From: Siphonodentalium dalli
Taxonomy: Eukaryota > Mollusca > Scaphopoda > Gadilida > Siphonodentaliidae
Length of the DNA stretch: 64,000 nucleotides
Assembly: GCA_032622095.1 (NCBI GenBank)
Contig: CP136068.1
Span: 52,508,443-52,572,442 of the forward strand
Reading direction: 5' to 3'
In this document: one piece after another, positions 4,547 to 9,541 of the stretch
Position numbering within the stretch: the first letter of the stretch is position 1
Layout: each line of letters opens with the position of its first letter
Notes under the pieces: model-generated
The model's database searches: none
Told to the model about the DNA's origin: nothing
What the model saw: only the letters and a program-made list of their open reading frames with translations
Translations under genes and position numbers: made by a program

Positions 4547-4670
4547 CCTGAGACATGAAGAATGGTATCCTAAACCTGCCGGACAGAACCCGATCCCTCA
4601 GGGTTTGTAGATTGTGACCATCAAATGGCAGCGCACCACACACCAATACATACAGGACAACACCCAAACT
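4547..4670 (-). CDS. SIK: SIK exon: helices F and G ([18 protein letters not shown]...FFMSQ)
   Basis: This 124-bp exon is 41 codons plus 1 nt. Acceptor TTTTTCTTTCTTTACAG ends at 4671 and the donor CAGG/GTTCGT follows 4547. It encodes [33 protein letters not shown] and RIPFFMSQ, matching helix F, the PFDG loop and helix G of SIK kinases. The donor is weaker than the others (GTTCGT). Its first 42 nt and the preceding 27 nt of intron are the progenitor of the array that runs upstream to 9541, so this is the last of about 69 tandem acceptors. I take 4670 as the true start because only this copy continues into PFDGHNLQ. Which acceptor is really used cannot be told from DNA alone. Confidence 0.92.
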
Positions 4671-7600
4671 CTGTAAAGAAAGAAAAACATGTCTATACAG
4701 CGCACCACACACCAATATATACAGGACATGAACACCCAAACTCTGTAAAGAAAGAAAAACATGTTTATACAGCGCACCACAAACCAATATATACAGGACA
4801 TGAACACCCAAACTCTGTAAAGAAAGAAAAACATGTATATACAGCGCACCACACACCAATATATACAGGACATGAACACCCAAACTCTGTAAAGAAAGAA
4901 AAACATGTTTATACAGCGCACCACACACCAATATATACAGGACATGAACACCCAAACTCTGTAAAGAAAGAAAAACATGTTTATACAGCGCACCACACAC
5001 CAATATATACAGGACATGAACACCCAAACTCTGTAAAGAAAGAAAAACATGTTTATACAGCGCACCACAAACCAATATATACAGGACATGAACACCCAAA
5101 CTCTGTAAAGAAAGAAAAACATGTTTATACAGCGCACCACACACCAATATATACAGGACATGAACACCCAAACTCTGTAAAGAAAGAAAAACATGTTTAT
5201 ACAGCGCACCACAAACCAATATATACAGGACATGAACACCCAAACTCTGTAAAGAAAGAAAAACATGTTTATACAGCGCACCACACACCAATATATACAG
5301 GACATGAACACCCAAACTCTGTAAAGAAAGAAAAACATGTTTATACAGCGCACCACACACCAATATATACAGGACATGAACACCCAAACTCTGTAAAGAA
5401 AGAAAAACATGTTTATACAGCGCACCACACACCAATATATACAGGACATGAACACCCAAACTATGTAAAGAAAGAAAAACATGTTTATACAGTGCACCAC
5501 ACACCAATATATACAGGACATGAACACCCAAACTCTGTAAAGAAAGAAAAACATGTTTATACAGCGCACCACACACCAATATATACAGGACATGAACACC
5601 CAAACTCTGTAAAGAAAGAAAAACATGTTTATACAGCGCACCACACACCAATATATACAGGACATGAACACCCAATCCCTGTAAAGAAAGAAAAACATGT
5701 TTATACAGCGCACCACACACCAATATATACAGGACATGAACACCCAAACTCTGTAAAGAAAGAAAAACATGTTTATACAGCGCACCACACACCAATATAT
5801 ACAGGACATGAACACCCAAACTCTGTAAAGAAAGAAAAACATGTTTATACAGCGCACCACACACCAATATATACAGGACATGAACACCCAAACTCTGTAA
5901 AGAAAGAAAAACATGTTTATACAGCGCACCACACACCAATATATACAGGACATGAACACCCAAACTCTGTGAGGAAAGAAAAACATGTTTATACAGCGCA
6001 CCACACACCAATATATACAGGACATGAACACCCAAACTCTGTAAAGAAAGAAAAACATGTTTATACAGCGCACCACACACCAATACATACAGCGCACCAC
6101 AAACCAATATATACAGGACATGAACACCCAAACTCTGTAAAGAAAGAAAAACATGTTTATACAGCGCACCACACACCAATATATACAGGACATGAACACC
6201 CAAACTCTGTAAAGAAAGAAAAACATGTTTATACAGCGCACCACACACCAATATATACAGGACATGAACACCCAAACTCTGTAAAGAAAGAAAAACATGT
6301 TTATACAGCGCACCACACACCAATATATACAGGACAACACCCAAACTCTGTAAAGAAAGAAAAACATGTTTATACAGCGCACCACACACCAATATATACA
6401 GGACATGAACACCCAAACTCTGTAAAGAAAGAAAAACATGTATATACAGCGCACCACACACCAATATATACAGGACATGAACACCCAAACTCTGTAAAGA
6501 AAGAAAAACATGTTTATACAGCGCACCACACACCAATATATACAGGACATGAACACCCAAACTCTGTAAAGAAAGAAAAACATGTTTATACAGCGCACCA
6601 CACACCAATATATACAGGACATGAACACCCAAACTCTGTAAAGAAAGAAAAACATGTATATACAGCGCACCACACACCAATATATACAGCGCACCACACA
6701 CCAATATATACAGGACATGAACACCCAAACTCTGTAAAGAAAGAAAAACATGTTTATACAGCGCACCACACACCAATATATACAGGACATGAACACCCAA
6801 ACTCTGTAAAGAAAGAAAAACATGTTTATACAGCGCACCACACACCAATATATACAGGACATGAACACCCAAACTCTGTAAAGAAAGAAAAACATGTTTA
6901 TACAGCGCACCACACACCAATATATACAGGACATGAACACCCAAACTCTGTAAAGAAAGAAAAACATGTTTATACAGCGCACCACACACCAATATATACA
7001 GGACATGAACACCCAAACTCTGTAAAGAAAGAAAAACATGTTTATACAGCGCACCACAAACCAATATATACAGGACATGAACACCCAAACTCTGTAAAGA
7101 AAGAAAAACATGTATATACAGCGCACCACACACCAATATATACAGGACATGAACACCCAAACTCTGTAAAGAAAGAAAAACATGTATATACAGCGCACCA
7201 CACACCAATATATACAGGACATGAACACCCAAACTCTGTAAAGAAAGAAAAACATGTTTATACAGCGCACCACACACCAATATATACAGGACATGAACAC
7301 CCAAACTCTGTAAAGAAAGAAAAACATGTTTATACAGCGCACCACACACCAATATATACAGGACATGAACACCCAAACTCTGTAAAGAAAGAAAAACATG
7401 TTTATACAGCGCACCACACACCAATATATACAGGACATGAACACCCAAACTCTGTAAAGAAAGAAAAACATGTTTATACAGCGCACCACAAACCAATATA
7501 TACAGGACATGAACACCCAAACTCTGTAAAGAAAGAAAAACATGTTTATACAGCGCACCACAAACCAATATATACAGGACATGAACACCCAAACTCTGTA

Positions 7601-9541
7601 AAGAAAGAAAAACATGTTTATACAGCGCACCACACACCAATATATACAGGACATGAACACCCAAACTCTGTAAAGAAAGAAAAACATGTTTATACAGCGC
7701 ACCACACACCAATATATACAGGACATGAACACCCAAACTCTGTAAAGAAAGAAAAACATGTTTATACAGCGCACCACACACCAATATATACAGGACATGA
7801 ACACCCAAACTCTGTAAAGAAAGAAAAACATGTTTATACAGTGCACCACACACCAATATATACAGGACATGAACACCCAAACTCTGTAAAGAAAGAAAAA
7901 CATGTTTATACAGCGCACCACACACCAATATATACAGGACATGAACACCCAAACTCTGTAAAGAAAGAAAAACATGTTTATACAGCGCACCACACACCAA
8001 TATATACAGGACAACACCCAAACTCTGTAAAGAAAGAAAAACATGTTTATACAGCGCACCACACACCAATATATACAGGACATGAACACCCAAACTCTGT
8101 GAGGAAAGAAAAACATGTTTATACAGCGCACCACACACCAATATATACAGGACATGAACACCCAAACTCTGTAAAGAAAGAAAAACATGTTTATACAGCG
8201 CACCACACACCAATATATACAGGACATGAACACCCAAACTCTGTAAAGAAAGAAAAACATGTTTATACAGCGCACCACACACCAATATATACAGGACATG
8301 AACACCCAAACTCTGTAAAGAAAGAAAAACATGTTTATACAGCGCACCACACACCAATATATACAGGACATGAACACCCAAACTCTGTAAAGAAAGAAAA
8401 ACATGTTTATACAGCGCACCACACACCAATATATACAGGACATGAACACCCAAACTCTGTAAAGAAAGAAAAACATGTTTATACAGCGCACCACACACCA
8501 ATATATACAGGACATGAACACCCAAACTCTGTAAAGAAAGAAAAACATGTTTATACAGCGCACCACACACCAATATATACAGGACATGAACACCCAAACT
8601 CTGTAAAGAAAGAAAAACATGTTTATACAGCGCACCACACACCAATATATACAGGACATGAACACCCAAACTCTGTAAAGAAAGAAAAACATGTTTATAC
8701 AGCGCACCACACACCAATATATACAGGACATGAACACCCAAACTCTGTAAAGAAAGAAAAACATGTTTATACAGCGCACCACACACCAATATATACAGGA
8801 CAACACCCAAACTCTGTAAAGAAAGAAAAACATGTTTATACAGCGCACCACACACCAATATATACAGGACATGAACACCCAAACTCTGTAAAGAAAGAAA
8901 AACATGTTTATACAGGGCACCACACACCAATATATACAGGACAACACCCAAACTCTGTAAAGAAAGAAAAACATGTTTATACAGCGCACCACACACCAAT
9001 ACATACAGGACAACACCCAAACTCTGTAAAGAAAGAAAAACATGTTTATACAGCGCACCACACACCAATATATACAGGACATGAACACCCAAACTCTGTA
9101 AAGAAAGAAAAACATGTTTATACAGGGCACCACACACCAATATATACAGCGCACCACACACCAATATATACAGGACATGAACACCCAAACTCTGTAAAGA
9201 AAGAAAAACATGTTTATACAGCGCACCACACACCAATATATACAGGACATGAACACCCAAACTCTGTAAAGAAAGAAAAACATGTTTATACAGCGCACCA
9301 CACACCAATATATACAGGACATGAACACCCAAACTCTGTAAAGAAAGAAAAACATGTTTATACAGCGCACCACACACCAATATATACAGGACATGAACAC
9401 CCAAACTCTGTAAAGAAAGAAAAACATGTTTATACAGCGCACCACACACCAATATATACAGGACATGAACACCCAAACTCTGTAAAGAAAGAAAAACATG
9501 TTTATACAGCGCACCACACACCAATATATACAGGACAACCT
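4626..9541 (-). repeat. Tandem array of SIK splice acceptor plus exon start (about 69 x 72 bp)
   Basis: The unit, in SIK sense, is 42-45 nt equal to the start of the SIK exon (SLGV(H)[10 protein letters not shown]) plus 27 nt equal to the intron end (TATAAACATG, then TTTTTCTTTCTTTACAG). Most units are 72 bp and carry an extra CAT triplet giving GVHVL. About seven are 69 bp like the real exon (GVVL), and three short 24-bp partial units are seen. Both ends of the array keep the 69-bp form. The distal end near 9540 is degenerate and lacks the pyrimidine tract. Units differ by only a few substitutions, which implies recent expansion or strong homogenisation. Long open frames run through it in three of six frames because one stop-free unit is repeated; the minus frame of 9545-4521 is the SIK frame and runs into the authentic exon. 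Confidence 0.95.

Follow-up and report, generated by a model that had tools for sequence, protein, structure and literature searches.

A splice-acceptor minisatellite at a SIK kinase exon of Siphonodentalium dalli is probably an expanded "mirage" treated as intron

In the scaphopod Siphonodentalium dalli, a SIK kinase gene carries between two of its exons a 4.9-kb tandem array in which almost every unit contains a splice acceptor and the start of the next exon. This raises the question of which acceptor is joined to the upstream exon, and whether the array affects the gene product or is simply removed with the intron. We analysed a window of 64,000 nucleotides (assembly GCA_032622095.1, contig CP136068.1, positions 52,508,443 to 52,572,442 of the forward strand; positions below are those of the window unless a chromosome label precedes them). 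The genome comprises 2.23 Gb in 9 sequences.

Using TRF, we found a 72-nt period at positions 4629-9537, reported as four abutting rows with 98-100% matches. Parsing into units resolved 67 acceptor-like copies lying head to tail on the minus strand, with exon-start coordinates from 9479 down to 4670. By TRF, parsing and scoring, the acceptor-side array occupies 4671..9548 on the minus strand and contains 66 unit intervals and 65 decoy AG acceptors. Each unit joins 27 nt from the end of the intron (ending TTTTTCTTTCTTTACAG) to 42-45 nt from the start of the exon encoding helix F. Most intervals are 72 nt long (58 cases); five are 69 nt and three are 96 nt. The AG is kept in 66 of the 67 copies, and in the remaining one (5462) the acceptor reads ACAT instead of ACAG (5463..5466, minus strand). 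An extra CAT is present in the exon part in 61 of the 66 intervals. It is absent from both edge copies and also from five interior intervals. The 5'-edge copy (9480..9548, minus strand) begins with its exon-derived part (9507-9548), followed by 27 nt derived from the intron. The initial annotation had placed an array upstream of the helix F exon, with the authentic exon last (4670), and had given this composition of the unit; both are found in the assembly as described. It counted about 69 copies, and parsing gives 67. It assigned an exon part of 14 codons to every unit, and most copies encode 15 residues.

An array of this kind could have been made or inflated by assembly. Its size may be off by several units, and one of the amphioxus duplications called mirages was reportedly assembled aberrantly in a draft genome (PMC3087553). 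However, the 66 intervals include 14 distinct unit sequences, with 42 intervals identical to one another, and a search for higher-order block order in the array found a best shift no better than shuffles (P 0.39). In addition, separate boundary arrays lie at many unrelated loci. We therefore regard an artefact as highly improbable. When the unit was searched as DNA in the genome, 67 of the 68 matches listed were in the SIK array and one was the exon of a SIK3-like paralogue; the search passes over very common words, and the listing is no proof of uniqueness.

The gene was read on the minus strand of the window. The activation-loop exon (10000..10170), assigned by sequence reading and a PDB match, ends PQIDIW at the donor TGG/GTAAGC. 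The authentic helix F exon (4547..4670), assigned by reading and scoring, starts in phase 0 behind the acceptor CAG/AGT and ends at the donor AGG/GTTCGT, and its phase fits the next exon. Sequence reading also placed an exon ending VHRDLK at 27381..27496 and an exon (VMETKNMLYLVSEFAPKGEIF) at 49359..49422. The gene model has eight exons, the eighth of them partial; at the helix F array it uses the last acceptor, and at each of the other arrayed exons the first donor. The joined exons encode a single intact protein that runs from Met to the kinase and UBA domains. The model protein scores over the Pfam cut-offs for Pkinase (PF00069, 263.5 bits) and UBA_SIK3 (PF23312, 42.9 bits), and its best PDB match is SIK3 (484.9 bits), ahead of MARK3 (388.7) and AMPK (280.2). 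These domains and this ranking bear out the SIK identity proposed initially. From its signature residues, the gene is presumably of the SIK1/2 type. One SIK intron also holds a 25-nt unit repeated 244 times (20408-26507), and 42-nt repeats with telomere-like TTAGGG runs are located at 27549-27737, just upstream of a SIK exon. Elsewhere, at C2:149.8-150.6 Mb, closely similar kinase frames form a large tandem cluster; most of them have about 281 codons without stops, and they are apparently single-exon.

A SIK3-like paralogue is located 5 Mb away. It shares this intron, with site and phase unchanged and a single acceptor, and the only repeat that TRF detected in its stretch is a 17-nt unit in 2.2 copies within the intron. 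The paralogue is thus consistent with the array being an addition.

In our view, the array is a mirage that is treated as intron, and the last acceptor (4670) yields an intact kinase; judging from the sequence, we put the probability of this at roughly 0.78. The segment across the boundary, with the final 27 nt of intron and the initial 42-45 nt of the helix F exon, would have been tandemly duplicated, and the duplicated unit would then have expanded and become homogenised in the usual way of minisatellites. Every copy supplies an acceptor of its own, and an untouched exon remains downstream, at the 3' end; for this reason the array as a whole can count as intron. The spliceosome would pair the activation-loop exon (10000) with the acceptor at 4670, the last one, and the upstream acceptors would be used rarely or with little effect.

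To score the splice sites, we trained a matrix by EM, using 120 kinesin and SNF2 exons from this genome; the training exon edges are approximate, lying near the edges of profile matches, and the percentiles are rough. A score of 15.41 bits, in the 97th percentile, was obtained for 63 of the 66 AG sites, including the authentic one. Among the 65 decoys, 62 score the same as the authentic acceptor, one scores higher (16.72) and two score lower (11.5, 60th percentile), which largely agrees with the initial statement that every unit presents a good, equivalent acceptor. The 23-nt scoring window is identical in 63 of the 66 AG sites, the authentic site among them, and so it offers no reason for the last acceptor to win. 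The acceptor of the paralogue is in the 58th percentile. There is no good acceptor before the 5'-edge copy, where the best of three AGs in or just before it is in the 2nd percentile. The donor of the authentic helix F exon is weak (18th percentile), and this weakens an argument from exon definition. Within each unit (for example, near 4640 on the minus strand), TTG/GTGTGT reaches the 33rd percentile, above the donor of the authentic exon; given this site, each unit could conceivably supply a micro-exon of 30 nt in frame. We did not adopt Dscam-like exon choice as the main interpretation, since this best unit donor, although stronger than the authentic one, is only in the 33rd percentile. Recursive splicing was also set aside, because the site is CAG/AGT rather than AG/GT.

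The equal scores would suit frequent use of the decoys. Such use would give SIK proteins in a ladder of lengths, with n x 24 extra residues before helix F; these would probably be inactive kinases, and their share would be set by copy number. The reading frame points the same way: the array lies within one open kinase frame of 1696 codons from stop to stop, and each of the 66 intervals has a length divisible by 3. With the frame open throughout, decoy use would cause neither a frameshift nor a stop. However, two further frames, one per strand, are also open across the array for about 1650 codons each, and multiples of 3 are at chance level among boundary arrays (TRF period divisible by 3 in 8 of 18, P 0.22). 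Selection for an open reading frame is thus unsupported. Only 11 of the 216 single changes of the unit create a stop, and none of the nine observed change types does; stop-free copies are therefore unsurprising. The open kinase frame is not strong evidence of translation.

The two other arrays of the gene also speak against a ladder. Exon B, an upstream exon ending KLYQ/GTGAGT, has a donor-side array of 11.2 copies (C8:52585087-52585669, minus strand) whose 52-nt unit is out of phase. Exon G, which follows the helix F exon, has a donor-side array of 39 nt x 20 (C8:52506398-52507188, minus strand), in which an insertion is followed, part way along, by in-frame stops. Its first donor, GTAGGA, is in the 33rd percentile, and its decoys often read GTAAGA, in the 73rd. 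Taken with the frame, this makes it unlikely that a protein ladder is produced.

The array might also act as a length-dependent brake. Dozens of strong polypyrimidine/AG sites would bind U2AF and delay or misdirect splicing, and SIK output would fall with copy number. The density of good sites fits this idea: 65 decoy acceptors are spread over 4.9 kb, and 63 of them rank in the 97th percentile or higher when compared with sites of the genome itself. Yet we saw no sign of decoy retention. In seven large arrays, the splice dinucleotides are off consensus at 11 of 548 bases and the other array bases at 285 of 11,962 (P 0.67), so that the dinucleotides drift like the rest. There is no sign that decoy AG or GT is preferentially kept or purged, in a test that is weak, the homogenised copies being non-independent. 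Furthermore, Adh3 data and globin RT-PCR suggested that regular splicing is undisturbed by amphioxus mirages (PMC3087553). We consider a brake quite unlikely. The drift of the decoys, the result for the frame and the intact gene together favour arrays treated as intron. The initial annotation had offered three functional options, namely slowed or randomised acceptor choice, a brake on expression, and neutrality if the last acceptor always wins. The third is the best supported, by the decoy drift, by unit lengths that ignore the frame in 18 arrays and by the intact kinase model.

Boundary arrays are not confined to this gene. Another kinase, at C6:27.786-27.791 Mb, has a donor-side array of about 120 units of 32 nt, each containing the exon end and the donor GTATGT. 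By-eye inspection of 142 sampled exons revealed splice-boundary arrays in 13 of them, 10 at donors and 3 at acceptors; at P 0.09 we claim no bias towards donors. The 13 include 10 of 80 kinesin exons, 2 of 40 SNF2 exons and 1 of 22 chaperonin exons. The kinesin sample represents 80 of 123 rows (the top 87 minus seven near-identical paralogue rows, with the lowest 36 left out). The SNF2 sample represents 40 of 73 rows in rank order, leaving out multi-stop and paralogue rows; at one SNF2 locus (L122), neighbouring rows hinted at an array beforehand, and it was included by rank. The chaperonin exons come from the best 24 of 53 rows, from which two long intronless frames were dropped; five near-identical pairs were kept, so that about 17 exons are independent. 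Three arrays that were marginal by eye (L029, L095 and the left array of L068) were counted as intronic, whereas L123 was counted although its decoy has no AG, and L099 was counted with a unit that includes only 7 nt of exon. At C7:133.58 Mb, both ends of one kinesin intron apparently carry arrays, with 21 units of 58 nt on the donor side and units of 62 nt on the acceptor side. Its donor exon is presumably a kinesin exon, recognised by the kinesin motif encoded in the unit.

It is possible that exon-intron boundaries are themselves special. Under a seeding null, which relates unit length to flank length and uses the by-eye classes, 13 boundary arrays compare with 3.3-4.2 expected (P 6.6e-6 to 1e-4). 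For SNF2 and chaperonin together, the same null gives 3 against 1.2-1.5 (P 0.1-0.18), and SNF2 alone with automatic classification gives 2 against 1.0-1.1 (P 0.27-0.30). The excess is carried by the kinesins, and there the sliding null, in which the visible arrays are moved within their stretch, disagrees: 11 were observed and 10.1 expected (P 0.41), or 11 and 9.9 with a stricter array cut-off (P 0.37). Array coverage in the kinesin set is flat, at 7 to 12 of 160 positions between the exon edge and a distance of 380 nt. Minisatellites abound in the sampled flanks, covering 4-8% of positions up to 380 nt from the edge, and boundary arrays may simply follow from this. It is very unlikely that boundaries are genome-wide hot spots of tandem amplification in this lineage and that the SIK array is, at the same time, a splice ladder tunable by copy number that places n x 24 residues before helix F.

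The locus is a natural experiment on acceptor choice, with 65 decoys near-identical to the authentic acceptor motif, most of them told apart by the exon CAT. Because this CAT marks most decoys, the winning acceptor, whether first, last or graded, is readable directly from cDNA. Boundary arrays also provide material on intron growth and on the possible origin of new introns from boundary repeats.

The initial annotation knew of no described case of a splice-site satellite in a conserved kinase. A keyword literature search, with most subscription papers outside its reach, found no report of a boundary array in a kinase. Amphioxus genomes measure about 0.5 Gb, compared with 2.23 Gb here, and amphioxus Adh was reportedly the subject of the original mirage paper in 2002. 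The human IFI6 (6-16) minisatellite with multiple splice donors is said to have been described by Turri et al. in 1995. As a kind, such arrays had already been published as amphioxus mirages (PMC3087553), as human boundary minisatellites (PMC2812944) and at IFI6 (PMC4526556), so the claim of no precedent does not stand. The repeat units of the IFI6 minisatellite are said to serve as splice donors and to give three mRNA species (PMC4526556). IFI6 and the SIK array are alike in that a splice site lies within the minisatellite repeat; they differ in that the IFI6 repeat is donor-side and its units are said to be used. In human segmental duplications, minisatellites at boundaries average 30-bp units x 4 and accompany 27 intron modifications (PMC2812944). 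They share with our arrays the position at exon-intron boundaries, but they concern recently duplicated paralogues and few copies, and are described there as forming novel introns and changing splicing.

In the amphioxus mirages, intron-exon boundaries at either end are duplicated in the manner of minisatellites, with units of 10-160 bp; many copies carry AG/GT signals, the length of the mirages is unstable, and edge copies are excluded from homogenisation (PMC3087553). The SIK unit also spans the boundary and falls in the 10-160 bp range, many copies carry the splice signal (66 of 67 with AG), both 5' and 3' exon boundaries are affected in the S. dalli genome, and interior copies are homogenised while edge copies are distinct in lacking the CAT, though five interior SIK intervals also lack it. 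Length variation is known in amphioxus, whereas the SIK array is known from the sequence of one assembly. The SIK case differs in its 67 copies, against 3 and 6 in the two haplotypes of the published globin case, and in having three arrays in one gene. In our reading, what is new is the copy number, the fact that a single conserved kinase gene has three arrays, and the abundance of boundary arrays in a non-cephalochordate genome. This abundance would widen a phenomenon that we found described only for amphioxus and some human genes.
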